64,000 bases of DNA, from assembly GCA_946894095.1 (NCBI GenBank), contig OX335653.1, positions 4,221,001 to 4,285,000 of the forward strand, given 5' to 3'. Every line of letters starts with the position of its first letter. Positions within the stretch are counted from its first letter, which is position 1. Origin of the DNA: Incurvaria masculella (taxonomy: Eukaryota; Arthropoda; Insecta; Lepidoptera; Incurvariidae). The position numbers and the translations under genes were made by a program. The notes beneath the pieces are model-generated. The model searched no databases, was not told the DNA's origin, and worked only from the letters and a program-made list of their open reading frames with translations. Positions 12,694-56,229 of the stretch are shown here, piece by piece.

Positions 12694-13041
12694 CGATACC
12701 CTCAGCCAGCGCACATTAAATATTGATGTATTCCCCGTCTTCCGATACGCGGAACCTGGGGGGCTTGTGGGTGTGCACTTTGAGCACTATTCTTGAGGCC
12801 GGGACTCGTCGATACCCTTAGCCAGCGCACATTAAATGTTGATGTAGTCCCCGTCTTCCGATACGCCGAACCTGGGGGGCTTGTGGGTGTGCACTTTGAG
12901 CACTATTCTTGAGGCCGGGACTGGTCGATACCCTCAGCCAGCGCACATTAAATGTTGATGTATTCCCCGTCTTCCGATACGCGGAACCTTGAGAGCTTGT
13001 GGGTGTGCACTTTGAGCACTATTCTTGAGGCCGGGACTGGT
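12694..13041 (-). repeat. tandem array of exon tails, 3 x 116 bp
   Basis: Three units start at 12694, 12810 and 12926, exactly 116 bp apart. The fourth start, at 13042, runs into the parent exon 13064-13308. Each unit codes (minus) for about ASRIVLKVHTHKPPRF...DGEYIN and the stop, so it keeps only the H-x-H half of the finger. None has the W-x-C, the second Cys or a splice acceptor. Substitutions between units are few (tattgatgta/tgttgatgta, ctcgt/ctggt), so the array is young or homogenised. Confidence 0.9.
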
Positions 13042-13063
13042 CGATGCCCTCAGCAAGCGCACA

Positions 13064-13308
13064 TTAAATGTTGATGTATTCCCCGTCTTCCGATACGCGG
13101 AACCTGGGGGGCTTGTGGGTGTGCACTTTGATCGTCTCCATAACCTCGCACCGCCCGTTCAGCGCGACCGCGGCGGTGCAGTTGTTCTTCCGCACGGAGC
13201 ACACCCAGCGGACGCCGCCAGACCTGCACCTCTTGTTCGTCCTGACGTAAGTGAAGCCGCGGTAAACGAGCAGCTGGCAACCCTGGATTGATTTGATAAA
13301 CCCTACAT
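13064..13308 (-). CDS. mod(mdg4): FLYWCH alternative terminal exon, parent of 116-bp array
   Basis: Acceptor 'attttcag', then 'at', then VGFIKSIQGCQLLVYRGF; 80 residues to TAA. W-V-C, C-x6-C (CSVRKNNC), HTHKPPRF, end EDGEYINI (Asn where nearly all others have Lys). It holds no in-frame ATG near its start, and the open frames on both strands across it are shadows. Its last third is copied three times immediately downstream (12694-13041). Confidence 0.92.
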
Positions 13309-14149
13309 CTGAAAATTGGGATAAAATTAAGCTTAAAAAAAATTATGCTTCCAACCTTTGTCTTAGGAATTTAGGGGGAAAAAAACTAATTTGGATGTAG
13401 TGAGTTGTTAAGCTAGTGAAGAGCTGGTCTGGTGAGGCCAGTTCACAAATCAATGGTATGTACATGTTCGTTGATATTGCATATTCAACGACCATGTACA
13501 TAGACAACGACCATGACCATGTACAATGTTGGATGATGACCAACCCCTGATAACGCTGTGCATGATAGCGGGAAAAGATACACCTTTTTCATAAGAAGTT
13601 CATGTAAATGGTGCATAATGAAAAAGGCCGAATCCCAACAACACAACCTCCGATGCCACTGTACATTATAGCGCAGACAAAGATATCTTCGTTTTTAAGG
13701 ATTGGTTGTAAAAATAAACTGCTTCATAATATAAGATACTACTTTTAATAGTAATTCAACAGTAAAATATAATTAAATTATACTATGCATAACATACATT
13801 TTATACCCATTTATGCAATCTTTAATTCAGCGTTGAATGCCTGTTTCATGCCTAATAGCTATTAATTGCACTTTATTTTATTTACTTATTCCCATAAGTA
13901 GTTTTACAAAAAAAAACACTACCACGTAAACCAGTGGCCCACAGACTGTATCAAAAATGGTAGGACATATGTTTAAATTTAATGTTTACCTACGTATGCA
14001 TAGATAAATGAGTTGCAACAAATACTCGATCGTTACAAATAATTGCACATTCAAGTTCATTCCAACCTCATTGTCATGCGAATCCTGCATAGAGTGTATT
14101 CAATTTAAATCGATACAATACTTACATTTTACAAATATACAGTGTACAT
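13309..14149. other. spacer
   Basis: No exon seen. There is a short inverted repeat around 13460-13525 (gtacatg...catgtac, with ttcgttgatat/atattcaacga) that could form a hairpin. Confidence 0.4.
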
Positions 14150-14290
14150 CTTGGTTTTTCTTAAAGTTGACTTCTGACTGGACGACGCGTCAGAGGTCCT
14201 CGAGGTACGCGCCGCGATCCTGGTGATGTCCGCAACGTGGTGGACGAAACGTCAGAAAGAAGCAAGCTTTACACTGTGTATCCGTAAAAT
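14150..14290. repeat. dispersed repeat, 'ggacgaaacgtc' family
   Basis: Closely matches 20393-20500 (shared 'gaggtcctcgaggtacgc', 'gcgatcctg', 'gtccgcaacgtggtgg'), ending near 'gtgtatccgtaa' in both. The family is not recognised by name. Confidence 0.65.
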
Positions 14291-14741
14291 GTAAGCATCA
14301 AGCATTTACCATTAAGAGGATAATGAGTTGATCATGTTCCATGCAATAGCTCGTGCCTGAATCCTCAGTCAAATTTAAAAATTATTTTTTTTATTTTTAT
14401 TTTATTTTATTTGGGAAATCAACAGCTTACATATCTAGTACAATTTTAAAAAAATAAAATTACCTTCAACTAAAGCCAATTACAGATTTCCTCTAATTAC
14501 CGTTACAAATTTTGTAGATTAATATAAGTAAGTAGTATAAAATGCGTGAAAAGAGAAAAAAGGAGAACAAGTGAAAATACATTGTAGTATACATTACATT
14601 ACCTGCGCATGTTTGTGTAGGTAGGGTGAGTTACAAAAGTGTACGTGAGTGTGTATTTATGTATGAGTGTGTATATTTTGCATATTAAATGAACCAACTG
14701 AGAGCTACGTCTGTACGTTTTTTTGAATACGGTAACGTTTA
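14291..14741. other. spacer
   Basis: T/A-rich tract near 14380-14420. Nothing else recognised. Confidence 0.4.
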
Positions 14742-14801
14742 TCCATGACAAACGCATTTATAAATTTGTGTATGCAAAGACAAAAAGGCGTTTGTCATGG
14801 A
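14742..14801. repeat. short perfect-arm hairpin
   Basis: TCCATGACAAACGC at the left is mirrored by GCGTTTGTCATGGA at the right, with about 30 bp between. Probably a small foldback element or its footprint. Confidence 0.6.
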
Positions 14802-14984
14802 TACAAGTCGAGTTATCAAAAAAACCGAAACGTCCAGTTGATTATTTTGGTGATTTTCCTCAGGTGATTTATTTAATGTGCAAAATTTCAGAAAAATATT
14901 TCCTAACTGGACTGAGGAAACAGGCACGAACCATTGCATGAAACTTGACCATCTCATTATCCTCTCAATCGTAGGAGAAAAAAG

Positions 14985-15997
14985 GTAAATTTTGATATAT
15001 TGCCCGTCGGCCGTGACGTGGTACCTGGGCGGCTCGTGGGTGTGCGCTCTGAACGTCTTCACAATCTGATCCCGCTCGTTGAGTATGAGCGCAGCGGAGC
15101 AGCCGTTAATATTTGATCGCCTCATAATCCTCTTAATAATAGGAGAAAAAAGTTAAATTTTGATATATTGTCCGTCGGCCGTGACGTGGTACCTGGGCGG
15201 CTAATGGGTGTGCGCTCTGAACGTCTTCACACTCTGACCCCGCTCGTTGAGTACGAGCGCAGCGGAGCAGCCGTTAATTTTTTATTGCTTCATAATCCTC
15301 TTAATAATAGGAGAAAAAAAGTTAAATTTTGATATATTGCCCGTCGGCCGTGACGTGGTACCTGGGCGGCTCGTGGGTGTGCGCTCTGAACGTCTTCACA
15401 CTCTGACCCCGCTCGTTGAGTACGAGCGCAGCGGAGCAGCCGTTAATTTTTTATTGCTTTATAATCATCTTAATAATAGGAGAAAAAAAGTTAAATTTTG
15501 ATATATTGCCCGTCGGCCGTGACGTGGTACCGGGGCGGCTCGTGGGTGTGCGCTCTGAACGTCTTCACACTCTGACCCCGCTCGTTGAGTACGAGCGCAG
15601 CGGAGCAGCCGTTAATTTTTTATTGCTTCATAATCCTCTTAATAATAGGAGAAAAAAAGTTAAATTTTGATATATTGCCCGTCGGCCGTGACGTGGTACC
15701 GGGGCGGCTCGTGGGTGTGCGCTCTGAACGTCTTCACACTCTGACCCCGCTCGTTGAGTACGAGCGCAGCGGAGCAGCCGTTAATTTTTTATTGCTTTAT
15801 AATCATCTTAATAATAGGAGAAAAAAAGTTAAATTTTGATATATTGCCCGTCGGCCGTGACGTGGTACCGGGGCGGCTCGTGGGTGTGCGCTCTGAACGT
15901 CTTCACACTCTGACCCCGCTCGTTGAGTACGAGCGCAGCGGAGCAGCCGTTAATTTTTTATTGCTTTATAATCATCTTAATAATAGGAGAAAAAAAG
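14985..15997 (-). repeat. tandem array of exon tails, 6 x 169 bp
   Basis: Stop-codon positions are 14985 (stop lost), 15153, 15322, 15491, 15660 and 15829, then 15998 in the parent exon. Spacing is 169 bp throughout, apart from 168 for the first. Each unit begins (minus) near 'aacggctgctcc', so it keeps the second Cys and the HTHEPPRYHV tail but not W-x-C or an acceptor. In the outermost copy TAA has become TAC, so its frame runs on to 14739. The middle copies read Q-S-V-K where the parent reads Q-I-V-K. Confidence 0.93.
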
Positions 15998-16251
15998 TTA
16001 AATTTTGATATATTGCCCGTCGGCCGTGACGTGGTACCGGGGCGGCTCGTGGGTGTGCGCTCTGAACGTCTTCACAATCTGACCCCGCTCGTTGAGCACG
16101 AGCGCAGCGGAGCAGCCGTTGATTCTCTTCCGCGTGGAGCACTCCCAGCGAACTTCGCCAGCCTGGAGCCTCTTCTTATTGCTCCTGGTGTAGGTGAAGC
16201 CGCGGTGTAGAGCCAGCGGGTTCCCCCGCGTCGACGTGATGAATTTGATTT
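15998..16251 (-). CDS. mod(mdg4): FLYWCH alternative terminal exon, parent of 169-bp array
   Basis: Acceptor 'tatttcag', then 'aa', then IKFITSTRGNPLALHRGF; 83 residues to TAA. W-E-C, then C-x8-C (CSTRKRINGC), two residues longer than its neighbours' x6, and HTHEPPRY. The end is ADGQYIKI. The array on its downstream side copies only the part after the longer C-x8-C loop. Plus-strand frames at 15247-16210 are the antisense of the array, repeating every 84 residues. Confidence 0.93.
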
Positions 16252-16332
16252 CTGAAATATAGGTTAACGTGAGCTTTATTCACTGTTTATATTCGTAATA
16301 AAACTACTATTCCGTGAGGTCATGACATTTTT

Positions 16333-16790
16333 GGTCACGATAAGGTAAATGGCTGATTCTGGGTTCACATGTTCCGCCAACCCTCTGATGCTAAATAGGT
16401 CGGTCTGCCTGTGCCAAATGGTAGCGTTATCTAATATATATTGGCTATATCAAATAGAAGTTGGTATGTATCTGCTGATGAATATACTGATTGTCTAGAA
16501 ACATTGATACCTATCAATTATACAACAATAACCAGTCGGTTTTTTAATTAAATACTTATATGGTCACGATAAGGTAAATGGCTGATTCTGGGTTCACATG
16601 TTCCGCCAACCCTCTGATGCTAAATAGGTCGGTCTGCCTGTGCCAAATGGTAGCGTTATCTAATATATATTGGCTATATCAAATAGAAGTTGGTATGTAT
16701 CTGCTGATGAATATACTGATTGTCTAGAAACATTGATACCTATCAATTATACAACAATAACCAGTCGGTTTTTTAATTAAATACTTATAT
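16333..16790. repeat. tandem duplication, 2 x 229 bp
   Basis: 'ggtcacgataaggtaaatgg' starts at 16333 and again at 16562. The two copies are essentially identical through 'ttttttaattaaatacttatat', pointing to a very recent duplication of non-coding DNA just upstream of the parent exon. Confidence 0.9.
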
Positions 16791-18028
16791 TTACCTATAA
16801 CCTAAATCGCATATAATTACGAAATGCAACCAGAGATTTGTTCAGTTTTGGTATCGCTAAGCAGATATCTACTGATACTTTCATGCTTCGTTGTTTGCAG
16901 CAATTTACCTTATCATATATATTTTTTGTCACCATAACTACTTTTTCAGGCGCCTTACCTACGTAACGCAACCACTTGGCGCAGGCAGACTGACACATTT
17001 AGCTTCAGAGGGTTGGTCTTTTTTTTTCTGTGAACCCAGTTTCAGACATTTACGTTATCGTTACCAATTTTGTCGCGACCTCCAAGTCTATACGTTGTTC
17101 GTCGTAGAAAACTTCATCAACCGAGGCTGGTAGTTGTAATATTTCAAGAGCTTTCTTCTTTATAACAATGTGTTCTTATTTCTTGTTTTATTCATATAAT
17201 ACACAGTCGTTAAAAACATCGTAAGCATTTCTTAATATTTTTTTTGTGATAAACCGTAAAATAACAATTTTCATTGTTTTTCCATTAATTGCGCTGTGAC
17301 ATTGTGCTTCTTGCCATATTTCATTATTTTAAGCTACCGGGGAGTAAACGGCACAAATGACCGCGTTGACTTAGAAGCTTCCAAGGGACCGTATTCCTAA
17401 GACTTTCATATTAATTTCAACTTATAACCTCCACGAGTTACTGAGGAAAAGGGCTTGACAGACAGATAGGCAGACTAATAACGAAGTGATTCTATAAGGG
17501 TTCCTTTTTTCATTTTTAAAAAGGGTAATAAGTCGAATCGTCTGCTGCTGAATAGTGATTTGGCGACGAACGACAATTTGCAGGCTTATCTAATAATCGT
17601 TAGCAGATAAACCCGCAAATACTATTATTATAATAATATATTCCAAGATTTCTAGGGTGTCTAAAAAAGTGGTCAGAGGTTTCGAATGGTTAAGACGTAT
17701 AGGAAAGTGTTTACGTGCCCAGGGCGAATAGTTTAAAAACATTGATATGTATATAATAAAACATTAAATTTAAATGTTTTGAGTATCTAATAATTTTTCG
17801 AATGACCCTCGTGAAGAGGACAAAAACAAAAACCAGCTTACAGTCACAAAGCAATTGAAATATAAAAAAATAAAAAAACTACGATAAAATAAAAAAAAAC
17901 AGAACAAATCATGCATACATTAATGATACTACATATTAAATTATTGGTACTAGCAATTTGTTAGCTTCGTTAATACATTTATTTAGCTGTGTATGTCAAT
18001 GCGACGCCATACCCGATTCGTCCAATGA
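16791..18028. other. spacer; contains copied cassette flank
   Basis: There are no exons. At about 17756-17850, 'taaatgttttgagtatc...cgaatgaccctcgtgaag...aaaaacaaaaaccagc' recurs in diverged form at about 18871-18960 and 20543-20630. This marks the edge of the cassette that carries exons 18029, 19632 and 21322. Confidence 0.55.
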
Positions 18029-18273
18029 TTAAATTTTGACGTATTTCCCGTCGGCCGTGATATGTATCCTGACGGGCTCGTGAGTGTGCGCTCTGTACGT
18101 TTTGACAACTTCGTTCCGCTCGTTCACTAAAATGGCGGCGGTGCAATTGTTTCTCTGCAAGGAGCATTCCCAGCGCACGTCGCCAGTTTTGAGCGCGTTC
18201 TTCCTTCTAGTGTAAGTGAAGCCGCAGTACAGAATCTGTGGGTTCCCTTTGGCTGATTTGATGTATTTTACTT
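18029..18273 (-). CDS. mod(mdg4): FLYWCH alternative terminal exon
   Basis: Acceptor 'atttttcag', then 'aa', then VKYIKSAKGNPQILYCGF; 80 residues to TAA. W-E-C, C-x6-C (CSLQRNNC), HTHEP, end ADGKYVKI. It has no in-frame ATG, so it is easily missed; the annotated-looking frame at 17979-18167 is a shadow. Closest relatives are the next three exons to the right (19632, 21322, 22825), which share the acceptor context and an LYCGF or LYSGF core. Confidence 0.92.
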
Positions 18274-18364
18274 CTGAAAAATAGGTAAATAAAATAATTA
18301 TTGTTAATTTTTCTCGGCTAAACGTTTATCTGAAAACATAGTGAGGATAAAAAAGCAACATTTT

Positions 18365-18728
18365 TTGGATGGCTAATATAACACAACTACCGTAATGATA
18401 CTAGCCCAATACAACACATTCCCGAAGGAATAAGGTGCCATGCTAGAACCTTCCTTTTAATGAGCACGGCTATATTGAATTGGATAGAAAACCCGAGCTG
18501 TTGTTTCATCCAATGCAATGTACCAAACCGGGCGTGCTTAACCATACCACCTAGTAGGGGAAGAGGACCTACAATTTAACATGGGCTCCGAACCATGAAA
18601 CAGCTCGCATTCGTAACGAAATGCACTTATCCGTGTAAGAAAGTTGTGCATGAATGAGGCGAGGATTTGAACCCAGACCTCCCACATGAAAGGCAAGTCC
18701 TCTAGCCATTAGACCACAAGCTGTTGTA
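18365..18728 (-). mobile_element. SINE, tRNA-derived type
   Basis: Reverse-oriented copy of the element complete at 40648-41052. It contains the inverse of the B-box-like 'ggttcaaatcc', the 'gcagctcgcattcgt' block and 'catggatggctaata' at the other end. This copy is diverged, with several small differences from the others. Confidence 0.65.
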
Positions 18729-21566: not shown

Positions 21567-21599
21567 CTGAAAAATAGGTGCATACATGCATTATTTTTT

Positions 21600-28503: not shown

Positions 28504-28721
28504 CTAGCCGTGGACCGACTTGGGCGGGTCGTGGTTATGGGACCTCTTGACGGAGGTAACGGCGTAGTCGTAGTCGGTGGTGAGGCTTGCCCGGCAGCCG
28601 TTCTTCCTGAACGCCGAGCAGAACCAGATGATCTTGTTGCTGGACTTGCCGCACACGTTGTAGGTGAAGCGGCGGAACATCAGCACCGAGTTGCCGCCCT
28701 TGGACGGGATGAGGATGGCCT
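28504..28721 (-). CDS. mod(mdg4): FLYWCH alternative terminal exon, short tail
   Basis: Acceptor 'cattgcag', then 'ag', then AILIPSKGGNSVLMFRRF; 71 residues to TAG. W-F-C, C-x7-C (CSAFRKNGC), HNHDPP, and then only KSVHG before the stop. The usual TADGxYVKI end is missing, so the stop is premature relative to every other intact exon. The two Cys and two His are all kept, so a folded finger remains plausible. Confidence 0.85.
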
Positions 28722-29559
28722 CTGCAATGAAACGGATTAAGTCAGTACTGATGAAATATTGTCCGTACTCTTCATCTAATTTAATTCCGCGGCGCTCACA
28801 AAGGAAAGATTCTGGTGTGACACCGGATTCCTTGGGGAATGCAGCGTATTTGGCTAAAGTTATGACGGTGGGTATAATATTGGTCTTTCAGGTGATACAT
28901 TAGTTAAGTTTTGAAGAAGCCAAGATTAATTTTTCAAATTGTAGTGTTTCAAAGCACGGATTTTCGAAGTTCGCTCGGAGCTGTAGGAGTGTTGGGGATT
29001 CTAGTTCTGTAGTTGACAGAGTCACAATAACACACACATTTATTTATTTAGGAAGTTTTTAATGCAAGATTTTTTTAATAATTGTAATACTCGTGCTCAT
29101 TTATTGCACTCCTTTTGCAACGAATACCATATTCATGCAGAAATAATTATTACGCTTGAATAAAAACAAAATAACAAAAAAAATGTTTTTATGTTAAACA
29201 GCGACGTATGGAAATAAAAGACGTGTAATTAGATTTTCAATATGAAAAAAAAAATACGGGCTGAATTAATCCGAACAGTATTCCTGTTATTCTTGACTGA
29301 ACCAAAATGTCTTACCACCAAGCGTCACAGTCCGAAACAATCGACAACGACGATAGAAGAGGTATCAGTTTGAGATTATAGAACGACATCTACATTGAAC
29401 TGCTTTGTAATTAGATTTTTTAAATAATCAGGAAAAAAATGGTGTGGACATTTATCTGAAGCAAAATTCGAACTTGCAACCTTTGGATTATGTATCGCAG
29501 GTAGTGAAAAGTTAAATCAGGGTTGACTCTCGAGTCCGATACCAAAAACGCAAAACGTG
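28722..29559. other. spacer
   Basis: No exon. The segment 29385-29460 ('acatctacattga...tttgtaattagatt...gtgtggacatttatctgaag') resembles 33405-33485, which lies at a similar distance downstream of exon 33920. This suggests duplicated flanks. Confidence 0.5.
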
Positions 29560-29827
29560 CAGCGTATGAACCCTCATCAACAGTGGTGATGAGGTACGCA
29601 TAGTCCGTTATAGTTTTAACCTCATTCCTCCAATGCCTTCGGCTTGTCAAGCGAGTCCGCCCCCGGACTAGAACAGGACATATTCTTAGACGTAATGACA
29701 AGCAGACAGCGCTCGATGACGGCTGCTAACAATAGTAGTGATGAGGCGCGCATAGACCGTTATGGTCTTGGCCTCGTAGCTTTTAATGCCTGCGGATCGA
29801 GCCATACCAAAGGAACCCATCGCTCGA
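29560..29827 (-). repeat. two decayed exon-tail copies
   Basis: Two pieces downstream of exon 29828 copy its second half: 29686-29800 (YEAKTITVYARLITTI...) and 29560-29680 (NEVKTITDYAYLITTV). Each ends near 'gaatatgtcctg' as the parent does. Both have lost the reading frame and W-x-C. Confidence 0.75.
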
Positions 29828-30069
29828 CTAAAGCAGGACATATTCTCCATTAGATCGAATGTGATAAGCGGGAGGTGCATGATCGTGATTGCCGACAACT
29901 CTGATGATTCGGTACGCCCTGTCAGTAGTGATCTTAGCTTTGCATTTCCCTTGGCTGCGACTCGAGCAGTACCACATGAACTGATTCTTTGACTCCTTGT
30001 TGATATAGTACCGGAAACCGTGGTACACCATCCGGGGCCTTCCCCGTATATTCGGTATGATGATAACAT
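29828..30069 (-). CDS. mod(mdg4): FLYWCH alternative terminal exon
   Basis: Acceptor 'ttcattacag', then 'at', then VIIIPNIRGRPRMVYHGF; 79 residues to TAG. W-Y-C, C-x7-C (CSSRSQGKC), HDHAPPAYH, end NGEYVLL (Val-Leu-Leu in place of VKI). First exon of the WYCSSR type that dominates 28.5-40 kb. Two tail copies lie downstream, and a dead relative is at 32446-32660. Confidence 0.9.
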
Positions 30070-30282
30070 CTGTAATGAACGAACTCGTTTAACTCTTATA
30101 TGGCTCAATAAATATATTAATACTATTGATATATTCGTTTATTGCTTAAGAGTGCTCGGTTTGTCCAAAAATATATTTGAATGTATGAGGCTAATATTCA
30201 TTATATATCCGGTCACTTCTCACTACATCTTAATAAACAACACTTATTTTTAATACGATGTTTTTTTTTATGCAACCTGACA

Positions 30283-33915: not shown

Positions 33916-33919
33916 CCGC

Positions 33920-34925: not shown

Positions 34926-35530
34926 TTGAACAATTTGATACAATGGCAATCTTTGGTTACTTGGCGGCTCGTGGTTGTGCCGCTCCGAGGCAATGGTCAC
35001 GCGGTACTCGAGATCGGCCGCCTTGCAAACGCTAGCGCGTCTGGAGCAGTACCAGAGACCGCCCCTACGGTATTATGGTGTAAGTAAGGAGTATACAACA
35101 AATAATTTCGAAAATCTTCAACGTACAATTAATGTAATTGCCATATTGCGATGGTAGCTTGGCTGCTTGTGGTTGTGCTGCTCCGTTGTCATCGTCATAC
35201 GGTGCTGGTGATTGGTCGCAACACTGACTTGCAACTGCTACCCCAACTGGAGCAGTACCAGAAACCTCCCCTTTTCTTAGCATATTGTAAGAAGAAAACG
35301 AATCAAATATAATGTCTTCAGCCTACAACTTGACGTAGTTGTCATCTTTGGTACGATGGTAGCTTGGCGGCTCGTGATTATGCTGCTCCGTGGTCATCGT
35401 TACGCGGTGTTCGTGATCAGTAGCAACACTGGCCTTGCAATTGCTACCCCGAATGGAGAAATGCCACAAAACTCCCCTTTTCGTAGCATATTGTAAGAAG
35501 TAGTCAATGAATCATTTATATTTTTTCAGC
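34926..35530 (-). repeat. tandem array of exon copies, 3 x about 200 bp
   Basis: Three copies of exon 35531 lacking its first third lie downstream, with stop-equivalent positions near 34926, 35123 and 35323 (periods about 197, 200 and 208). The copy at 35323 is open through HNHEPPSYHRTKD but its first Cys is replaced (W-H-F instead of W-Y-C). The copy at 35123 has a 1-nt loss after the second Cys and its stop is changed. The outermost copy is the most degraded. All lack an acceptor. Confidence 0.88.
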
Positions 35531-35772
35531 CTACAGCTTGATGTATTCGCCATCTTTGGTACGATGGTAGCTTGGCGGCTCGTGATTGTGCTGCTCCGTG
35601 GTCATCGTTACGCGGTGCTCGTGATCGGTCGCAACACTGGCCTTGCAACTGTTACTCCGACTGGAGCAGTACCAGAAACCTCCCCTTTTGGTCGTATGAT
35701 GTAAGGAGTAGGTGAAGCCATGATGCATTAATAAACTTTTCTTCCCTTTTCTAATTGGTATGAGAGCAGTTT
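35531..35772 (-). CDS. mod(mdg4): FLYWCH alternative terminal exon, parent of 200-bp array
   Basis: Acceptor 'attttcag', then 'aa', then TALIPIRKGKKSLLMHHGF; 79 residues to TAG. W-Y-C, C-x6-C (CSSRSNSC), HNHEPPSYH, end KDGEYIKL. Sister of the exon at 37295 (shared ALIP, LLM, YS.HH.TK.G.FWYCSSR). Confidence 0.92.
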
Positions 35773-37639: not shown

Positions 37640-38337
37640 ACGAGCAGCACCAGCCGATTGTGACACAGTTTTCAGGACGTACGACATAGAAAACAGATAT
37701 AATGTTTACGTTTTCTTTGTATGTTTATAATCAAAAGTGTCATTGTATCGTAAAAAATACTTTATCATCATAAAAGACATTACTACACACCATATAAGCA
37801 CTACACCCTGCTCCAGCAGTACCAACCGATGGTGTATCTCGAGACTGTTTTCAAGACATAGAAAATTATACGGCATGTGGTAACATTACAGTTGTATTCC
37901 TACACTTTGCAACAGCGTCCTTCTGAAGCGAAGCAATAGTTTGGCGGTCCATGGGTGTGCTCGGTATTCATACTGACTATGTTGTGCTGGTGGTCGGTGA
38001 AGTGCTGTACTTTACACGAGAACTTCAGGTGGCTCGAGTAGAACCAGCAAATGGTGTGATTCAAAACAGTTGGCAAGGAAATTAAATGGCATGTGGTAAT
38101 ATTACATTTGTATTCCTACACTTTGCAATAGCGTCCATCTGAAGCGATGTAATAGTTCGGTGGTCCGTGAGTGTGCTTGGTATTCACGCTGATGATGTTG
38201 TGCTGACCGGAGAGCTGTGCCTCACGCGAGAGCTTTAGGTGGCTCGAGCAGAACCAGCAAATGGTGTGTTTCAAGACAGTTTCCACGACATATGGCAAGG
38301 AAATTAGATGGCATATGGTAATATTACAGTTGTATTC
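37640..38337 (-). repeat. tandem array of exon copies downstream of 38338
   Basis: Two well-kept copies end at 37900 and 38116 (periods 216 and 222 to the parent). Copy 38116 reads ICWFCSSHLKLSREAQ, so its second Cys is Arg. Copy 37900 reads ICWFYSSHLKFSCK, so its first Cys is Tyr; its H-x-H is intact. Two shorter relics further left (about 37640-37690 and 37780-37860) keep only the W-x-C side. Sequence between units (gcatgtggtaatattac) is also repeated. Confidence 0.87.
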
Positions 38338-38579
38338 CTACACTTTGCAATAGCGTCCATCTGAAGCGAAGCAATAGTTTGGCGGTCCGTGGTTGTGCTC
38401 GGTGTACATACTGACGATGTTGTGCTGGTGGTCAGTGGAGAGCCGCGCCTTACACGAGAACTTCAGACGGCTCGAGCAGTACCAGTAGATGGCGTTGGTC
38501 GATACTTTATTCTTGAAATACGTGAAACTGCGGTGCATTAGCAAGTTCTTTCCTTTTTTCGTAGGCAGGAAAGTTATTT
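38338..38579 (-). CDS. mod(mdg4): FLYWCH alternative terminal exon, parent of 220-bp array
   Basis: Acceptor 'ttaatttcag', then 'aa', then ITFLPTKKGKNLLMHRSF; 79 residues to TAG. W-Y-C, C-x7-C (CSSRLKFSC), HNHGPPNYC, end DGRYCKV (Cys where others have Val, shared with its array copies). A transposase remnant starts about 60 bp upstream of the acceptor, in the intron. Confidence 0.92.
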
Positions 38580-41990: not shown

Positions 41991-42635
41991 TATACAATAA
42001 ATAAATGACATTAGTTGTAGCCGTGTTGATCAAAGTTGAATCAAATAATTTCCTTTAAAGTTAAAGCAGAAAATAATATAAAGTTATGCAACAATGATAA
42101 TTGTCCAATCTAGTGCCCGACCTCAAAAGCTTACTGCTGATTCTCAATTCGTAACGAGTATGTTTATATGCAATGCTAAAAGATATAGGCCCTACAAAAT
42201 TAAAAATATAGTAGTAAAGAAAAATACTTTTGTTTTACTTAATCAAGTACATATTTTGTTCAGCAATTTTTTGTTGCAACAATAAGTTAGTTAAATAAAT
42301 ATTTAATTGACTAACAATAACCATTAAACGGATCAAGAAACCTTTTTACATTCAGGTTCAGCACAGCTACACTACATATCGTCAGTATACTGATAAAACC
42401 CTTTAATTGTAGAAATGAGAGTTTCGAGATAATTGGACTTGAAAGTTTAATAGCTCATAATGGTTGGTATAAATTGTCCATGTGTTTACACAACGTTACT
42501 TTAAAACTAAACGTCATAGCAATATATGGGGTGTACCATAAAAAAGAGCTTAGAAAATTAAGTAGCATTACTAACTCATTTTACTAAAAAATGTCAATTA
42601 GCGGTTTTACCAGTATACCGACGATATGCATACTA
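41991..42635. other. spacer
   Basis: Nothing recognised. Confidence 0.4.
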
Positions 42636-43467
42636 CACTTTTACATAGACACCATCAGCGGATTTATAATAGTAGGGAGATTCGTGGGTGCGGTCGTTGT
42701 TTGCCAGACAATTACACTTTTATAAACACAACATCAGCGGATTTATAATGGTTGGAAGGTTCGTAGGTGTGGTCGCTGTTTGCAAGACAATTACACTACA
42801 CTTTTATAAAGACACCATCAACGGATTTATAATAGTTGGGAGGTTCGTGGTTGTGGTCGTTGTTTGCAAAACAATTACACTACACTTTTATAAATACACC
42901 ATCGGCGGATTTATAATAGTTGGGAGGTTCGTGGTTGTGGTCGTTGTTTGCAAAACAATTACACTACACTTTTATAAATACACCATCGGCGGATTTATAA
43001 TAGTTGGGAGGTTCGTGGTTGTGGTCGTTATTTGTAAAACAATTACACTACACTTTTATAAATACACCATCAGCGGATTTATAATAGTTGGGAGGTTCGT
43101 GGTTGTGGTCGTTGTTTGTAAAACAATTACACTACACTTTTATAAATAAACCATCGGCGGATTTATAATAGTTGGGAGGTTCGTGGTTGTGGTCGTTGTT
43201 TGTAAAACAATTACACTACACTTTTATAAATACACCATCGGCGGATTTATAATAGTTGGGAGGTTCGTGGTTGTGGTCGTTGTTTGTAAAACAATTACAC
43301 TACACTTTTATAAATACATCATCAGCGGATTTAAAATAATTGGGAGGTTCGTGGTTGTGGTCGTTGTTTGTAAAACAATAACACTACACTTTTATAAATA
43401 CACCATCAGCGGATTTATAATAGTTGGGAGGTTCGTGGTTGTGGTCGTTGTTTGCATAACAATTACA
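42636..43467 (-). repeat. tandem array of exon tails, 10 x 84 bp
   Basis: Ten units of 84 bp (the outermost ones differ by a few bases) precede the parent exon 43468. Each codes on the minus strand for NDHNHEPPNYYKSADGVFIK-like residues and a stop, so each keeps only the H-x-H end, followed by 'tgtaattgttttgc' linker. There is no Cys ligand and no acceptor. Units are nearly identical (ggcgga/gcgga, atttg/tttg changes). Because 84 is a multiple of 3, the opposite strand is open for long stretches (42688-43149, 43183-43569), an artefact. Confidence 0.95.
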
Positions 43468-43712
43468 CTACACTTTTATAAAGACACCATCAGTGGATTT
43501 ATAATAGTTGGGAGGTTCGTGGTTGTGGTCGTTGTTCATTTTGAGAATGGCGAGCCGATGGTTGGTTAAAATTTTCGCTTTGCAGGCATTCTTTGCTGAA
43601 TGACGAGAGCAGGTCCACGAATAGGTGGTCTTAGATTTGTAATTCTTGCAGAACGTGTATCCTCGAAACATGAGCAGATGGTTTCCGTTCTTGATCGGAA
43701 GTAACACTAATT
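43468..43712 (-). CDS. mod(mdg4): FLYWCH alternative terminal exon, parent of 84-bp array
   Basis: Acceptor 'cttttgcag', then 'aa', then LVLLPIKNGNHLLMFRGY; 80 residues to TAG. W-T-C, C-x8-C (CSRHSAKNAC), HNHEPPNYY, end DGVFIKV. First of six C-x8-C exons (43468-53108). Its intron start 'tctgcaaaagtcgatatc' is nearly the same as that of exon 46901. Confidence 0.93.
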
Positions 43713-44264
43713 CTGCAAAAGTCGATATCTCTAAGAACATGAAATGTTTTGGTAAAAATAGTAAATAAGGAAAACTTTATTAACGTATAGCAATGAAACG
43801 AAACAAAATAAAAAACAATAAAGAAGAAAACAGACTGTCAATATAGTGCTTCGATTACATAAATATCTCAAAAGATTGTATTTGGTTCAGTGATTATTGT
43901 TAATCCAAGCAAAATATTTTTGGAATTATCTCATATACCGTACATGGATACACTTAACATAATTTATTGATCATTAATATTAAAGCAACTTGCTTTTCCC
44001 ATACCATATCAAGGATATTTTATTTTGAAAAAAAAACGATGAATTTATTTAAATTAATTTACACCAACATATTAAATTACTATAAAATTGTAAAAAAATG
44101 TGAAGACGTGGTTTTCTTTTCTCGACATTTTGTTGTGCTTCCGATGCATATTATATGTATAATCAACTCACAAACCTTTAATATCAATGGCTTACTTTAT
44201 GAATTGCTAAATTGTTTTAAGTACGAATCGCAAAAAAAAATAGGTCCTTTGCTTACTAATTCAG
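43713..44264. other. spacer; copied cassette flank
   Basis: 44130-44230 matches 39675-39770. No gene. Confidence 0.5.
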
Positions 44265-46900: not shown

Positions 46901-47148
46901 TCACTTCACTTTTACGTAATAACCATCGTCGGTTTGATGATAGCTGGGAGGTTCGTGGTTGTGGTCGGTGTTCATTTTGAGGATTTCAAGCCGATGGTTG
47001 GTTGTGATTTTCGCTTTGCAGACATCCTTCGCGGAATGGCGGGAGCAGATCCACTTATAGGTCGTTTTGGTTACGTGATGTTTGCAGAATGAGTATTCTC
47101 GAAACATGAGCAAATAGTTTCCGTTCTTGATCGGCAGTAACGTTATTT
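46901..47148 (-). CDS. mod(mdg4): FLYWCH alternative terminal exon
   Basis: Acceptor 'cttttgcag', then 'aa', then ITLLPIKNGNYLLMFREY; 81 residues to TGA. W-I-C, C-x8-C (CSRHSAKDVC), HNHEPPSYHQ, end DGYYVKVK (one residue past the usual stop). Sister of 43468 and 44844. Confidence 0.93.
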
Positions 47149-49258: not shown

Positions 49259-49312
49259 ATATATATATGGTCGATCATCTTCCATTCAATGCGATGGTAA
49301 CATCGGAATGAT

Positions 49313-49758
49313 TCACGACAACTTCACATATTCGCCATCGGCGGTTACATGATACTTAGGCGGATCGTGGTTGTGATCGATGTTCATCTGGATGACGCCG
49401 AGCTGATGGTTCGTGGTGATGCTCGCTCGGCAGATCTTCGTTACAAAACGACGGGAGCAACACCACCCGAGCCTACCTTTGGTTTCGTAGTTTTGGTCGA
49501 TCATCTTTCATTCAATGCGATGACATTAGAATGATTCACGACAACTTCACATATTCGCCATCGGCGGTTACATGATACTTGGGCGAATCGTGGTTGTGAT
49601 CGATGTTCATCTTGATGACGCCGAGCTGATGGTTCGTGGTGATGCTCGCTCGGCAGATCTTCGTTGCAAAACGACGGGAGCAACACCACCCGAGCCTACC
49701 TTTGGTTTCGTAGTTTTGGTCGATCATCTTTCATTCAATGTGAGGACATTAGAATGAT
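49313..49758 (-). repeat. tandem array of exon copies, 2 x 223 bp
   Basis: Copies ending at 49313 and 49536 repeat exon 49759 with a period of exactly 223. Both keep all four zinc ligands (W-C-C, C-x8-C, HNH), the stop and an open frame, but lack the first 25 or so residues and an evident acceptor. The upstream join reads '...gatgatcgaccaaaactacg'. In both copies W-M-C of the parent has become W-C-C, so they copied each other after the first duplication. Confidence 0.92.
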
Positions 49759-50006
49759 TCACGACAACTTCACATATTCGCCATCGGCGGTTACATGATA
49801 CTTGGGCGGTTCGTGGTTGTGATCGATGTTCATCTTGATGACGCCGAGCTGATGGTTCGTGGTGATGCTCGCTCGGCAGATCTTCGTTGCAAAACGACGG
49901 GAGCACATCCACCCAAGCCTACCTTTGGTTTCGTAGTTTTTTGAAAATGTATATCCCCGATGCATGATCAAGTGCTTTCCTCTCTTGGTCGGCAGCAAAG
50001 TAAACT
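49759..50006 (-). CDS. mod(mdg4): FLYWCH alternative terminal exon, parent of 223-bp array
   Basis: Acceptor 'atttttccag', then 'ag', then FTLLPTKRGKHLIMHRGY; 81 residues to TGA. W-M-C, C-x8-C (CSRRFATKIC), HNHEPPKYHV, end DGEYVKLS. Sister of 51231 and 52864 in sequence and in intron flank (all have '[a/g]cccatggt' or '[a/g]accatggt' 40-60 bp upstream). Confidence 0.93.
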
Positions 50007-50599
50007 CTGGAAAAATGTAGATTAAAGTTTGATAGCTTTCTTAAAACCCATGGTCGATGGTTCATGAATTATCCAGAAAAACATTAACAAAAGGAACTAA
50101 ATATTAACCTACAGTAAAATAAACTTTAAAATCATTTTTTTTACCGTGAATGAGTGAACCACATTGTCAAGGAAAAAATATGTATATTTATTTATATATG
50201 TTTATCGCACTAAAAACAATTTTAACAAAATGGATAACTTAATGACAGAGGAGACCTTCCCTTTATAGAAAAGGCTTCAACCATAGTAATAAAAATTAAA
50301 TTACATAAATCTAAACTATTTTTTGTTAAAACTAATCATTTTCAAGCGAACAATGCAACTCCTTATTAAATTAGTTGTAAGTTTTATTGTGAATGCGCAA
50401 TGTCGACAAATTGAATGTACTTGCTTTTTTTTTAAACTTGCTTCCTATATTGCAGCCGAAAGGCCTGTTTAGGTGGTAATTTCTTACAAATTGGATATTT
50501 TACATAAAATTTACACAATAGGCCGTTGTGTGTGCAATAGAAAGTAACATTTTTATCCATCCATTGGCCATCACACCAATAGTAATGTTAACAATTTAT
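50007..50599. other. spacer
   Basis: Nothing recognised beyond the shared intronic flank next to the exon. Confidence 0.4.
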
Positions 50600-50768
50600 C
50601 ATGTTACTGACATTAATAAGTTACTTAAGTTACATTTCGTTACTTAAATTAAAACGTTTCTTAAGTTACATGTGGTTACTTAAATTAACAAGTTACTCAA
50701 GAAACGCTTCGTTACTTAAATTAACAAGTTAATTAAGTTGCATTTCGTTACTTAAAATGACGAGTTAC
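50600..50768. repeat. minisatellite, 'ttacttaaattaacaagtta' unit
   Basis: About four and a half copies of a unit near 37 bp built on 'aagttacttaagttacatttcgttacttaaatta', with small changes. It directly abuts the TTAA-flanked MITE. Confidence 0.8.
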
Positions 50769-50772
50769 TTAA

Positions 50773-51191
50773 GGTGGTCCAACCCGGCGGGACTAACTCA
50801 TTCGCGGGCACTGTAGCGCTCTGGGACCTTCTGTTTCAAAAAAAGAGATAGGCTCCGTGATGAGGAAGATGCAACATGTCCACAAAAAGACAATGTGCAT
50901 AGTGTATGATTTGGTAAGATTTACGAAAATTTTGATGAAAACGACTTATAGCTAAAAGTAAACCACCACCGCTGTAGTCACAAATAGAACAAAAACCAAA
51001 TAGATTATAAATCTTGATTAAATAAGCTATAAAACTTAGAAACCAAACATATTTTTACAATTCCAACGGTCATCAGACATCTAGTTCGATCAAATAAAGC
51101 TCTTTTGAGCAAAATTTGGGATCTCTGATAAGAAATATGGGCGTGATCTTCTTTACCCGTTTGTATGGGTAGATGAGCGGGTTAGGCCACC
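50773..51191. mobile_element. TTAA-flanked MITE, copy 1
   Basis: Terminal inverted repeats GGTGGTCCAACCCGGC and GCGGGTTAGGCCACC, bounded by TTAA at 50769-50772 and 51192-51195. It is 419 bp, with no open frame. The TTAA duplication is that of piggyBac-type elements, but the ends do not show the usual CCC start, so superfamily is open. A longer copy (542 bp) is at 54822. Confidence 0.85.
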
Positions 51192-51230
51192 TTAAGGTAA
51201 CAAATGAAACCACATCTTTACAATCATTTA

Positions 51231-51475
51231 CTACACTTTTATATATTTCCCATCAGAGGTTTTATGATATTTAGGAGGAGCGTGGCTGTGATCTACGTTC
51301 ATTTTGATGATGCCGAGCTGATGGTCGGTGGTAATCCTCGCTCTGCAGCCACTCCTTGTTAAACGACTGGAGCAAAGCCACCCGAATGTAATTTTGGATT
51401 CGTGGTTTTTAGAGAATGTGTATCCTCTATACATAAGCAAATGCTTTCCGTTCTTGATTGGTAAAAAAGTAAATT
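51231..51475 (-). CDS. mod(mdg4): FLYWCH alternative terminal exon
   Basis: Acceptor 'atttttgcag', then 'aa', then FTFLPIKNGKHLLMYRGY; 80 residues to TAG. W-L-C, C-x8-C (CSSRLTRSGC), H-S-H (the only HSH in the set), HAPPKYHK, end DGKYIKV. The MITE at 50773-51191 sits only about 40 bp beyond its stop, so any 3' UTR must run into it. Confidence 0.93.
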
Positions 51476-52439
51476 CTGCAAAAATATGGATTACAGTTTC
51501 AACAGTTTCTTTGCAACCATGGTGGAGAGTATTTTTTTATTTTATACTTAAAAAAAAAACATACTTGGCTATACCATTTTTTTTTCAAATATTTTAATAG
51601 TAAATTAAAATTAATAGGTTCCTTATTTTTAAAGCATTTTATTACTGTAATCGAACCAAATATCGAGACAGAGTTTAGTGCGAGAAGAGTATAAAAGTAT
51701 AATTTTAGTTTAGCAGAATAAGTAACAAATGTCAAACATTTACAATGGAGAAGTCATGAGTAAATATTGTTAAATATTGTTTATTATTTTATTGTTTATT
51801 TATCATTAGCCAGTTCAGCAATCCCAGCGAAGAAGAACTGCTAAGAAACTCCGCTGGATTTTTGTACAACGTCCAGTTAGTCTAAGTTCAACAAAGTATT
51901 TTCCTCTGCTTACAGTCACAGGTAAAAACAGTAAATTGATATGAATTGACGAGAATCAACAATTCATGTCATATGCAACATGTGCGTAATGACAAATATC
52001 CGTTTATTTGTAAAGACCATGCCCACCATCTAACATGTCGCCAATTGGAGCAAGCCAGTCCCTACAAACAGCACGCCGGGCACAGCTATCGCCTCTCTCA
52101 ACCATATTTTAGGGAATTAGGAGACCGAACTTAGCGTCACCGCAAGCAAGGCCCTTAAAGCGATGCACTACTCCACTGGCAACAAGAAAAATATGTGAAA
52201 CCTTAGTACGATTTAGTTTTAATACTATTGTTTCTGCCAAGAACTACTACAGATACCTCTAAATATTTTATATTTCTTTAAATATACATAATATATAACA
52301 CATGCTGCAAGGGCTTGGCTACGTTAAAAAAAATCAATTGGCCCGCATATATTTACGTGCATGTCTAAGAGCCAACTAAGTGATTCGTCGATCTTGGTTG
52401 GAATTCCACGTAAAATTGTAGATTCCCCTTTATTACTTA
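51476..52439. other. spacer; copied cassette flank
   Basis: 51540-51735 ('acatacttggctatacca...attactgtaatcgaac...agaataagtaac') is matched by 53220-53400 upstream of exon 52864, so a 300-bp or longer intronic flank was duplicated with the exon. Confidence 0.6.
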
Positions 52440-52680
52440 CTAGATGGTTAGCCCGCCCTGGTTGGTACCATCGCAATGAATGAACAATGGTCAAAGCGGC
52501 AGTTTGAGCTCGGTTACATTAAACTGGATGGAAAACACGGACAATTTTCATTGCCGCTTCGACCATCGTTCATTCAATGCGATGGTACCAACCCGGGCGG
52601 GATTAACCCTACCACCTAGAAAGTAAGGAAAGTGACCTACAGTTTTACTTGGAATCCGAACCACGGCCAGCATCAACGGT
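52440..52680. mobile_element. two partial SINE copies in opposite orientation
   Basis: 52440-52510 carries the plus-orientation 'tagcccgccctggttggtaccatcg'. 52535-52680 carries the reverse orientation ('ggatggaaaacacggac', 'ccgcttcgaccatcg', 'ggtaccaacccgggcggg'). A nested or inverted insertion pair. Confidence 0.7.
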
Positions 52681-52863
52681 TGAAAATGGTCACCCATCCA
52701 GAACCCAACGGCGCTTACCCAGCTTATCGAATCTCAAGCCGTCGCCCCACTGGTCGTTCTAAACCTAAAATGGTTAATTGTATTGCCCTATGCAGCACAA
52801 AATATAGGTCAATCAACAGATATTTAATAGACAAATAATTGAGCCACAATCATAGACAATTCG

Positions 52864-53108
52864 CTACAATTTTAGATATTTCCCATCAGAGGTTTTATGA
52901 TACTTGGGAGGTGAGTGATTGTGATCGATGTTCATTTTGATGACGCCGAGCTGACGGTCGGTGGTGATAGTCGCTTTGCAGGCTTTCTTTGCTGAACGAC
53001 GAGAGCAAGTCCACCCAAGTTTACCTTTTGCTTCGTAGTATTTGGAGAATGTGTATTCTTGATACATGATCAAATGCTTTCCACTCACGGTCGGTATTAA
53101 AGTAAACT
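52864..53108 (-). CDS. mod(mdg4): FLYWCH alternative terminal exon
   Basis: Acceptor 'atatttgcag', then 'ag', then FTLIPTVSGKHLIMYQEY; 80 residues to TAG. W-T-C, C-x8-C (CSRRSAKKAC), HNHSPPKYHK, end DGKYLKL. Last exon of the C-x8-C block. Confidence 0.93.
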
Positions 53109-54734
53109 CTGCAAATATACGGATTATATTTTTACCTGTTTCTTAGAGCCCATGGTTTAAGGCAATATATATTTTAAAAACAACAATAAAAGGTTAATTT
53201 TTTATTGCATTCTTAAAAAAAATACATACTTAGCTATATATTAAAATATTTTAATGGCATATCAAATGAATAAGTTACTTATTTTTATAGTATTTAATTA
53301 CTGTAATCGACTCAAATACTTTTCAGACGAAGATAATGTTGTTCAAATTCAGCATAAAAAGTAGCATTTTCGTTTAACAGAAAAAGTAACGTTTGTCAAA
53401 AATATTATACAGGGTCTCGTAATGGCCAGTAAAATTTAAATTTGATTGAAACAAACAAAAAAGTTTAATAAATGTTTGCTGAATATCCTCTTAATAAATT
53501 GTTTGACTTTCCATACAAAGTAATTCGATAATTTACTGTAAAAAGTTTTTAACGTTCCGTAAGAACGTGGGAACGTTGTTGTACTTGGACATGGATGGCT
53601 AATATTAAATTAATGTACTGGCCGTTTATATGCCTGTATATATTATATTTCAATATATTTTTTCTTTAAATAGAAAAATGGGTCCCTTTCGCGCGATGGG
53701 TTTTAAACATCAGAATCATCAACATTAATGTAGAAGCAGATGTCATTATGGTTCAATATTTTAATTTCCGCCTTCATGTGGACACAAAAGTCGAATTAAG
53801 TAGTAAGTTAACTTAAACTTTCATTTCATTTCATTTCATTTTTATTCATCTTATAGGTACATTACATACACTCAGATACGTCAGATGGTTGCAATAAGTA
53901 ACATACAAATTTTTACACTACACTACTCAGATCACTACTACTATACATCTCAGATCATATAAACATATCTATTATTATAAAGTTTTACTTTCATCATCAG
54001 CTGTTAAGAGGCCTTGTCATAAATAGAGAGTCAGATAAAAAAGAATACATTAATTATTAGATAGACTACTTTATATCGAACATCTTACGTCAGATTTCGC
54101 GATAAATAGCAAGCGAAAGATGATTTCATTACTCTTAAAATTATGTAAAAAAAATTACTTCATTGTTACAAGCATACAATATTTTATATATCAGGTTTTA
54201 ATAACAGTAACAAAGAAAAGTAAAAAATAAATCTCTTCGAGTTATTAATAAAAATATAATATTGTAAAAATTTACGAAAAATCTTAAGTTTAGTATAGTA
54301 TATATCTTAAGTATAGCTCATAAAGATGTAAAATATATATCGTGCACAAGTTTGCTGAGCATCAGTCAACAACGATGTAAATTTAAATGCCGTCTTACAC
54401 ATATAGAGCATTTTCTTATCTGTTCGGATACATTAATTTTAAAATAAAATATTGTATGAAAAGATTTTAAATTATTCATTCTGATACAGCATTTTCTGGT
54501 AACTGTTTACATCTAAACAATTGTAATTATTTTCTCTGGCGCTGCACAAAGATAAATATGTAATACCCGTACGATTTAATATCATGAAAATACATAAAAA
54601 TAAATACATTTCATTACTTTAGTTATTATATTTATGTTTGTTTATATATATTATATTTTATTTAAATGAAATTAAGAAAATATTTATTTATATTATATTT
54701 ATAACAATTATTTCCCTAAATTTATTAACTTAAG
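53109..54734. other. spacer
   Basis: Copied intronic flank up to about 53400, a small SINE 3'-end fragment near 53588-53640, a (TTTCA)n run at 53820-53845, then AT-rich sequence with nothing recognised. Confidence 0.45.
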
Positions 54735-55755
54735 AGGATGGTCCCATAAATATCCGACCTATCAGAGAAAACACATTTTTTATTACTTGTTATTTCTTCA
54801 CAAAGTCTTATTTTAACTTAAGGTGGCCCAACCCGGCGGGCCCAACTCATTCGCGGGCACGGTACAAAACCGTGCTGTTGCGCTCTGGGACCTTCTCTGT
54901 TTCAAAGAATAAGACAGGCTCCGTGATGAGGAAGATGCAACATGTCCACAAAAAAGACAATGTGCATAGTGTATGATTTGGTAAGATTTACGAAAATTTT
55001 AATTTCAAAACTACTTATAGCTAAAAGTAAACCACGACCGCTGTAGTCAAAAATCTAACAAAAACCAAAAAGATCATAAATCTTGATTAAACAAGCTATG
55101 TCTGATGACTAATCTTTTTACGATGTTCTTATTTTATCATTGCGTAATCCACCTCCAAAGTTATTGTATAAAACGCGCGACAAATTCGAACTTTCGGACC
55201 TTATAACTTAGAAACCAAACACAATTTTACAATACCAATGGTCATCAGACATCTAGTTCGATCAAATAAAGCTATTTTGAGCAAAATTTTGGATCTCTGA
55301 CAAGAAATATGGGCGTGATCTTCTTTCCCCTTTTGTATGGGGAGATGAGCGGGTTGGGCCACCTTAATACACTTTTTCCAGCGATGTTCGATAGCTTCGA
55401 TACCTTGTTCATAATGAGAACCGACGATCTCCTCAAAATAGCGATAAACCGTAGACTCTACTTCTTCGTTGTTGGTAAATCGTTTACCGCCGAGCCATTT
55501 TTTCAAGTTTGGAAAGATTAAAAAATAATCCGAGGGGGCCAAATCTGGCGAATAAGGGACACGAGGAAGCAATTGGGACTTTAACTCATTGATTTTGGCC
55601 ATCGCAATTACGGACCTGTGAACTGGTGCATTGTCTTATCTCGATGAAACAAAACTTAATTTTTTGCCAAATGTAGCCGTTTTTTTTTATTTCATCACTG
55701 AAACGCTGCAATAAGATCGCATGATATTCACCGTTGATTGTACACAAAAAATAAT
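54735..55755 (-). pseudogene. mariner transposase 3' half, interrupted by a MITE
   Basis: The minus frame 55201-55602 starts MAKINELKSQLLPRVPYSPDL and continues with APSDY, NLKKWLGGKRFTNNEEVES, and IEAIEHRWKKCI. This is the last catalytic-Asp region and the C-terminus of a mariner transposase. Upstream pieces to about 55750 show LLQRFSDEIKK in another frame. The coding tail is broken at 55367 by the TTAA-flanked MITE. The mariner's own 3' end, with 'ggtcggatatttatgggacc', lies on the other side, at 54740-54770. Confidence 0.78.
54822..55363. mobile_element. TTAA-flanked MITE, copy 2 (nested in mariner)
   Basis: Ends GGTGGCCCAACCCGGC and GCGGGTTGGGCCACC, with TTAA at 54818-54821 and 55364-55367. 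It is 542 bp and shares blocks with copy 1 ('ctcattcgcgggcac', 'gtgatgaggaagatgcaac', 'tggtcatcagacatctagtt', 'gatgagcgggtt'). Copy 1 lacks an inner piece corresponding to about 55100-55200. Confidence 0.88.
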
Positions 55756-55765
55756 GAGTAATGTT

Positions 55766-56229
55766 CTATAACTTCACGTACTTCCCATCTTGGATAAAGT
55801 GGTAAGCGGGTGGTTCGTGATCGTGGTCGTTCCTAACAGATACCACTCGGTACGTCTTCGCGGTGTGCATACTGGCCTTGCAGCCCTCTCTTGATAGGAA
55901 CACACCCAGTTCAGAATAGGTTTTTCCAGTGATTTATTCCAGATCAGCCTTTTCGTGTGAATTGTCAACTCTTAACTGTACATAAATGAATGAGTAATAT
56001 TCTATAACTTCACATAATTCCCACCTTGGGTGAAGTGGTAAGCGGGTGGTTCGTGATCGTGGTCACTGCTAACAGAAACCACTCGGTACGTGTGCGTTGT
56101 GTGCATACTGGCCTTGCAGCCCCTCTTATGAGAGGAACACACCCAGTACAGAATATTTTTCAGTGATTTATTCCAAACCAGCTTTTTCGTGTAAACTGTC
56201 AACCTGTACAAAAAATAATGAGTAATGTT
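55766..56229 (-). repeat. tandem array of exon copies, 2 x about 232 bp
   Basis: Copies of exon 56230 end at 55766 and 56002 (periods 236 and 228). The 56002 copy is open with all four zinc ligands (W-V-C, C-x6-C, HDH), but its first strand is replaced by an unrelated TVYTKKLVWNKSLKN. The 55766 copy has the same replacement and a 1-nt frameshift between the two Cys. No acceptor is evident in front of either. Confidence 0.9.

Follow-up and report, generated by a model that had tools for sequence, protein, structure and literature searches.

Tandem arrays of exon tails beside FLYWCH exons in a putative mod(mdg4)-type locus of Incurvaria masculella

The window is a 64,000-nucleotide stretch of Incurvaria masculella (C13:4221001-4285000), and its features of interest are FLYWCH exons accompanied by tandem arrays that repeat the exon ends. 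A genome profile search placed PF04500 FLYWCH exons over C13 from about 3.92 to 5.20 Mb, that is, over about 1.3 Mb and on both strands; there were 614 first-look FLYWCH candidates genome-wide, and 149 of the 150 scored matches listed sit on C13. The DNA examined amounted to 324 kb, made up of the window, region A (C13:3900001-4100000) and region B (C13:4745001-4805000), and held 136 FLYWCH exon calls by hidden Markov model (HMM) and acceptor, a few of them overlapping (57 on the plus strand and 79 on the minus strand). Acceptor phase was imposed during the exon search, so that agreement in phase is no independent test, and a few of the automatic acceptor calls are wrong or missing. As in mod(mdg4), the exons are 3' exons with an acceptor, a FLYWCH domain and a stop codon, and all eight parent exons of the window scored above the PF04500 cut-off. 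The FLYWCH exons of the window span 950-62844. Two FLYWCH matches in one open frame at 29460-30268 of region B are perhaps a two-finger exon.

PF00651 BTB matches were found on the minus strand at C13:5221951-5222082 (46.6 bits) and C13:5221435-5221578 (36.3 bits). Joined by hand, these two exons gave a protein 95-96% identical to the matches listed (120 of 1798), whose names were mostly lepidopteran tramtrack beta isoform, with one modifier of mdg4-like and the others uncharacterized or fruitless. Searched by itself, the first BTB exon had no Pfam hit at E 0.001; its PDB matches were other BTB proteins. According to the excerpted text of a mod(mdg4) account, the gene is trans-spliced in Diptera and Lepidoptera, with common BTB 5' exons and many alternative FLYWCH 3' exons on both strands; its exon families were made by tandem duplication, and its isoforms number 31, 9, 34, 41 and 40 in five insects (PMC4667647). 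The present locus, known from genomic sequence alone, resembles the one described in those excerpts in its shared BTB part and in its alternative FLYWCH 3' exons on both strands, and differs from it in having more exons (136 calls in 324 kb vs. 9-41 isoforms). Its predicted organization is of the mod(mdg4) type, with common BTB exons at one end and alternative FLYWCH 3' exons on both strands, and the prediction is of a single giant gene whose alternative last exons number well over 100.

The preliminary description had listed eight arrays of exon tails in the window, all on the 3' side of an intact parent exon, with the stop codon included and the acceptor lacking. Seven were clear by Tandem Repeats Finder (TRF) and/or self-BLAST, starting at 12694, 14945/14954, 34954, 37810, 42632, 49268 and 55744 with periods of about 116, 169, 208, 216-228, 84, 223 and 228 bp, respectively; each contains the stop of a minus-strand FLYWCH exon but not the acceptor of that exon. 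The array placed at 29560 was detected neither by TRF nor by self-BLAST. Smith-Waterman alignment of that exon with its downstream DNA gave one degenerate copy scoring 62 and a marginal second copy scoring 32 (best score in 200 dinucleotide shuffles, 30), and the array is read here as an old decayed remnant. The polarity described for the window held in 8/8 arrays. With periods of 50-600 bp, self-BLAST gave 11 arrays in the window (7 tail, 0 head, 0 whole-exon and 4 without an exon boundary). The parent exons, the tail arrays and one further duplication were as follows:

13064..13308, minus strand: intact FLYWCH exon, parent of array 1 (HMM and acceptor call; PF04500 39.4 bits)
12694..13131, minus strand: tail array 1, 116 bp x 3.8, beginning 177 bp into the exon (TRF, 95% match)
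15998..16251, minus strand: intact FLYWCH exon, parent of array 2 (HMM, acceptor call, PF04500)
14945..16124, minus strand: tail array 2, 169 bp x 7 (TRF; copies 94.5-97.6% identical to parent)
29828..30069, minus strand: intact FLYWCH exon, parent of array 3 (HMM, acceptor call, PF04500)
29578..29816, minus strand: array 3, degenerate tail copies, 29668-29816 clear and 29578-29644 marginal (Smith-Waterman; coordinates converted by hand)
35531..35772, minus strand: intact FLYWCH exon, parent of array 4 (HMM, acceptor call, PF04500)
34954..35711, minus strand: tail array 4, about 208 bp x 3.8, partly decayed (self-BLAST; copies 86.7, 85.7 and 74.5%)
38338..38579, minus strand: intact FLYWCH exon, parent of array 5 (HMM, acceptor call, PF04500)
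37810..38495, minus strand: tail array 5, 216-228 bp x 3 (self-BLAST; copies 79.7 and 86.7%)
43468..43730, minus strand: intact FLYWCH exon, parent of array 6 (HMM, automatic acceptor, PF04500)
42632..43536, minus strand: tail array 6, 84 bp x 11 (TRF; 10 copies 87.0-97.1%)
49759..50006, minus strand: intact FLYWCH exon, parent of array 7 (HMM, acceptor call, PF04500)
49268..49940, minus strand: tail array 7, 223 bp x 3 (TRF; copies 96.7 and 95.6%)
56230..56468, minus strand: intact FLYWCH exon, parent of array 8 (HMM, acceptor call, PF04500)
55744..56394, minus strand: tail array 8, about 228 bp x 2.8 (TRF; copies 93.7 and 91.9%)
16332..16790, minus strand: 229 bp x 2 duplication, acceptor left single (TRF, 100% match)

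Array 1 had 3 full copies, 95.6-98.5% identical to the parent. For the parent of array 6, TTTTGCAG lies 18 bp further in (giving 43468-43712) and resembles the acceptor of the neighbouring exon 46901-47148. The tandem pair at 16332-16790, evidently recent, lies on the upstream side of exon 15998-16251 and stops 81 bp before its acceptor.

Over the 324 kb, self-BLAST gave 42 arrays (16 tail, 2 head, 6 whole-exon and 18 without an exon boundary) and TRF gave 32 (15 tail, 2 head, 5 whole-exon and 10 without an exon boundary). Classes were set by reading the exon-array relations, and the array at 165551 of region A, where the TRF array overlaps the stop, was put among the self-BLAST tails by hand. 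Tail arrays lay downstream of plus-strand exons in 5/16 cases and of minus-strand exons in 11/16, and array polarity tracks gene strand. Among the further loci L002, L003 and L008, one had a tail array (L008, 4.5 copies of 275 bp).

The rule that copies always lie 3' and never carry an acceptor failed in this wider locus, given its two head and six whole-exon arrays; acceptor-bearing arrays, named beforehand as the finding that would speak against the rule, thus occur inside the same locus. Strict polarity was rejected on the two head arrays with extra acceptors upstream of an intact exon:

region A 79486-80507: head array, seven clear 119-bp copies plus a degenerate outermost copy
region A 182906-183405: head array, two extra TTGCAG acceptors upstream of an intact exon

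Each clear copy of the first consists of TTTTAG and 59 bp of exon, and lies upstream of the intact exon 80447-80649. The acceptor copies of the head arrays are possible natural decoy acceptors. A whole-exon array at 28604-29619 of region A has four 99%-identical copies of 250 bp, with an acceptor in each, and the open frame of the first copies continues into the next copy.

The bias of tails over heads was 15:2 by TRF (p = 0.0023) and 16:2 by self-BLAST (p = 0.0013). When one unit per TRF array, with its own period, was placed at a random spot in the 324 kb (4000 runs), the 32 arrays were expected to give 2.1 tail, 2.1 head, 0.26 whole-exon and 27.5 other arrays, against 15, 2, 5 and 10 observed. 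Tail arrays were thus about seven-fold over random, and 15 of them were reached in 0/4000 simulations; by TRF, whole-exon arrays were also in excess and head arrays were at the random level. The pattern is real, repeated and statistically strong. Of the TRF arrays lacking an exon boundary, 4/10 had their end no more than 100 bp upstream of an acceptor (approximate p = 0.0005; this cut-off was picked after the data were seen), and some TRF arrays ended 22-81 bp short of acceptors. The guanine plus cytosine (GC) content of arrays without an exon boundary was close to that of the locus, on a list read by eye and not decisive, and GC in general is not obviously an array attractor.

Copies were compared with their parents by codon position in 48 full-length ungapped copies from 14 arrays, all more than 85% identical, with sites pooled over arrays; the codon counts excluded gapped copies and those of at most 85% identity, and the +764 match of the region A exon at 197319 was dropped as a neighbouring exon. 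The inclusion of the stop codon, as first described, was confirmed, the parental stop being kept in 47/48 copies. Sites variable among copies numbered 37, 28 and 45 at codon positions 1, 2 and 3 (p = 0.14), and sites fixed between the parent and all copies numbered 12, 7 and 29 (p = 0.0002); third against first plus second positions differed between fixed and variable sites (Fisher p = 0.026). Because variation among copies was spread over the codons and parent-copy differences fell mostly at third positions, the copies appear neutral and the parent constrained; tail copies as neutral debris beside a constrained exon fit these counts. Comparison of divergence with unit order, as had been proposed, gave no clear gradient, and the outermost copies were the most diverged in arrays 2 and 6.

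These comparisons bear on the possibility that the copies serve as gene-conversion donors that diversify or repair the parent finger. Intact frames would suit such donors, and 38/48 ungapped copies had no premature stop, with 8 of the 10 exceptions in one array. In 6/10 arrays that have at least two comparable copies, however, the copies resembled each other more than the parent, and third positions made up 29 of the 48 sites fixed between the parent and its copies. Since these fixed sites and the mutual closeness of the copies suggest that exchange with the parent is rare, frequent donation, one of the roles first suggested for the arrays, was left unsupported, and the donor explanation is very improbable. 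An assembly artefact is scarcely credible: there is no N in the window or in loci L001-L028, the assembly consists of 31 contigs for 552 Mb, the copies differ individually, and decayed copies of 74-87% identity are unlike a collapse or a duplication error.

The 5' breaks of the tail arrays fell at scattered exon positions, 36-196 bp from the exon start (automatic acceptor calls). The 3' breaks lay 15-82 bp past the stop in 15/16 arrays; in the sixteenth, whose nearest copy is partial, the distance was 187 bp as measured and 24 bp by way of the partial copy. The array at exon 161735 of region A is internally complex, its distance past the stop being 37 bp as measured and about 73 bp if the TRF boundary is taken. 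The arrays differ in breakpoints, in period and in parent exon, in support of the earlier proposal that the differing 5' breaks exclude one ancestral event and of independent, recurrent origin. As partial tandem duplication would produce, the units are head-to-tail direct repeats, the first of which is continuous with the parent (in the 29560 remnant, by alignment only); breakpoints are independent, and units of the other polarity are present.

The first junctions of the 16 tail arrays had no poly(A) run, except possibly CAATAAAAAA in array 2. An origin as 5'-truncated retrocopies was rejected on these junctions, with CAATAAAAAA of array 2 excepted. AATAAA or ATTAAA occurred inside 3/16 tail arrays only; in array 2, a poly(A)-type hexamer is present in five units (AATAAA/ATTAAA 35, 204, 373, 542 and 711 bp past the stop). 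The idea that poly(A) signals fix the ends of the units was unsupported, 13/16 tail arrays being without either hexamer. As so few arrays hold a signal and the junctions lack a poly(A) run, the unit boundary is not established as a transcript end.

In 13/16 arrays the first AATAAA/ATTAAA after the stop lay beyond the array, so that transcripts could run through it, which would accord with arrays kept as 3' untranslated region elements, or as terminators or insulators between adjacent exon units. The distance from array end to signal (median 201.5 bp; 16 arrays) resembled that from stop to signal in 106 exons without arrays (205 bp; p = 0.82), as such a role would have it, but this test is weak, the median distance from a random point to a hexamer being 280 bp. 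Arrays were moreover present at only 16/136 exon calls, each unit is merely the tail of its own exon plus flank, and the copies drift as if neutral. A retained function of this kind is improbable.

The favoured explanation, with a probability of about 0.7, is recurrent partial tandem duplication at the exons, in which the outcome is shaped by geometry and by selection against acceptor-only units, on top of an elevated rate of exon duplication. Partial tandem duplications of about 80-300 bp would have arisen many times in a fast-evolving locus of mod(mdg4) type, and the arrays would then have grown and shrunk, presumably by unequal exchange. Where a unit starts in the exon and ends past the stop, the first copy would stay joined to the exon start; the intact exon comes first, followed 3' by copies with a stop and without an acceptor, because the unit holds the end of the exon and not its start. 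Geometry accounts for the copies lying 3' of the intact exon, as the junctions show. Tail copies, sitting after the stop, would be tolerated and drift neutrally. An acceptor-only unit would instead put decoy acceptors upstream of the exon and would mostly, not always, be purged by selection, and whole-exon units could make new exons. The purging step is suggested by the 15:2 ratio and by the arrays stopping just short of acceptors; on the same two grounds, selection against duplicated acceptors was the best fit among the options first put forward, although acceptor-bearing arrays exist. The mirror-image head arrays, the whole-exon arrays, the scatter of the 5' breaks and the exon-tail arrays of two cuticle-protein genes on other chromosomes also count in favour of recurrent duplication. 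Geometry explains most of the one-sidedness observed, with selection, by inference, adding to it, and the one-sidedness has exceptions.

Several results weigh against recurrent duplication with selection as a full account. Head arrays were not depleted relative to random (2 seen, 2.1 expected) while tail arrays were enriched about seven-fold; selection on acceptors alone is therefore insufficient for the tail:head ratio, and an exon-centred duplication hotspot must be assumed, so that a raised duplication rate at exons would also be required. The 3' breaks were nearer to the stop than uniform placement given the period would put them (Kolmogorov-Smirnov p = 3e-5, the 187 bp value included), and this tight boundary speaks against plain random breakage, which predicts an even spread. 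Copy number was also higher in tail arrays than in those lacking an exon boundary (p = 0.0004). The seven-fold excess of tails and the tight 3' boundary both lie beyond the favoured explanation and are the part most worth following. Our preferred reading is that tandem duplication is in excess around the exons, on either side of them, and that selection would remove acceptor-only units; the alternative would be a process specific to 3' ends.

The same excess and the same boundary, together with exon-tail arrays in two cuticle genes, are what would be expected of a polar mutational process that acts close to the 3' ends of transcripts (through termination-linked breaks, R-loops or template switching) and duplicates tails. 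Each duplication would reach from an almost constant position shortly after the stop back to an exon position that varies; the process would be 3'-anchored and strand-polar on terminal exons, with breaks past the stop rejoined to variable exon points and selection secondary. If it were true, tail arrays would be made at about seven times the random rate on terminal exons of this insect. Head arrays at the random level agree with it, but the existence of head and whole-exon arrays does not, nor does the clustering of arrays just upstream of acceptors; only 3/16 tail arrays contain AATAAA/ATTAAA, a poly(A) run at the junction is possible in one only, and the cuticle copies end at a donor-like GT, not at a stop. 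This process is unlikely, though a serious candidate.

The cuticle arrays came from lists of other families in the same genome, in which detection differed from the scan within the locus, so that rates are not comparable. For cuticle PF00379, two tail clusters were present among the matches listed (150 of 181 candidates; rows read by eye), L036 and L037, with exon-tail direct repeats of 172 and 130 bp, on other chromosomes. Like the FLYWCH arrays, they lie downstream of an intact or fuller exon, and their copies are missing the start of the domain; unlike them, the copies end at a donor-like GT, and each L036 copy is preceded by AG, a possible acceptor. In L036 (C1:14185001-14186400) the exon tail is repeated 6.7 times at 172 bp, between AG and GT, and its copies are possible mini-exons. 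Trypsin PF00089 had no tail cluster among the matches listed (154 counted), and one doubled exon pair. BTB PF00651 had one whole-exon array among 75 matches, L038 (C4:16322001-16324700), in which the first BTB coding exon of another gene is present in five tandem copies of 244 bp; in the four copies read, a donor-like GT follows each.

No description of terminal-exon tail arrays was found among the matches listed from the open-licence PMC literature, and the excerpts of the mod(mdg4) account make no mention of tail arrays like those found here (PMC4667647). In Drosophila, as far as the excerpted reports go, small duplications are frequent, mostly below 500 bp and largely removed by purifying selection (PMC6380325), and duplications that ignore gene boundaries are documented (PMC5460883). 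The duplications in those excerpts are polymorphic and mostly rare (PMC6380325, PMC5460883), whereas those described here are multi-copy, lie at the 3' ends of one exon family and come from one assembly. Spurious AG signals upstream of acceptors are selected against in short Drosophila introns, according to a further excerpt (PMC10946897), which gives a documented reason for the loss of extra AG acceptors but concerns AG motifs, not duplicated acceptors.

With well over 100 similar terminal exons, the locus is a natural experiment that allows small tandem duplications near the acceptor and near the stop to be tallied. The effects of geometry, of selection against decoy acceptors and of mutational bias are separated in it, and the last is directly testable with population long reads. 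The arrays suggest that the birth of new exons (whole-unit arrays) and the build-up of neutral debris (tail arrays) could share one process.

Other elements of the window included an open, mariner-type transposase frame of 350 amino acids at 61304-62356 (PF01359, PF17906). The open frames at 3650-4375 and 8661-9407, about 5 kb apart, have matching translations and probably belong to an interspersed repeat.

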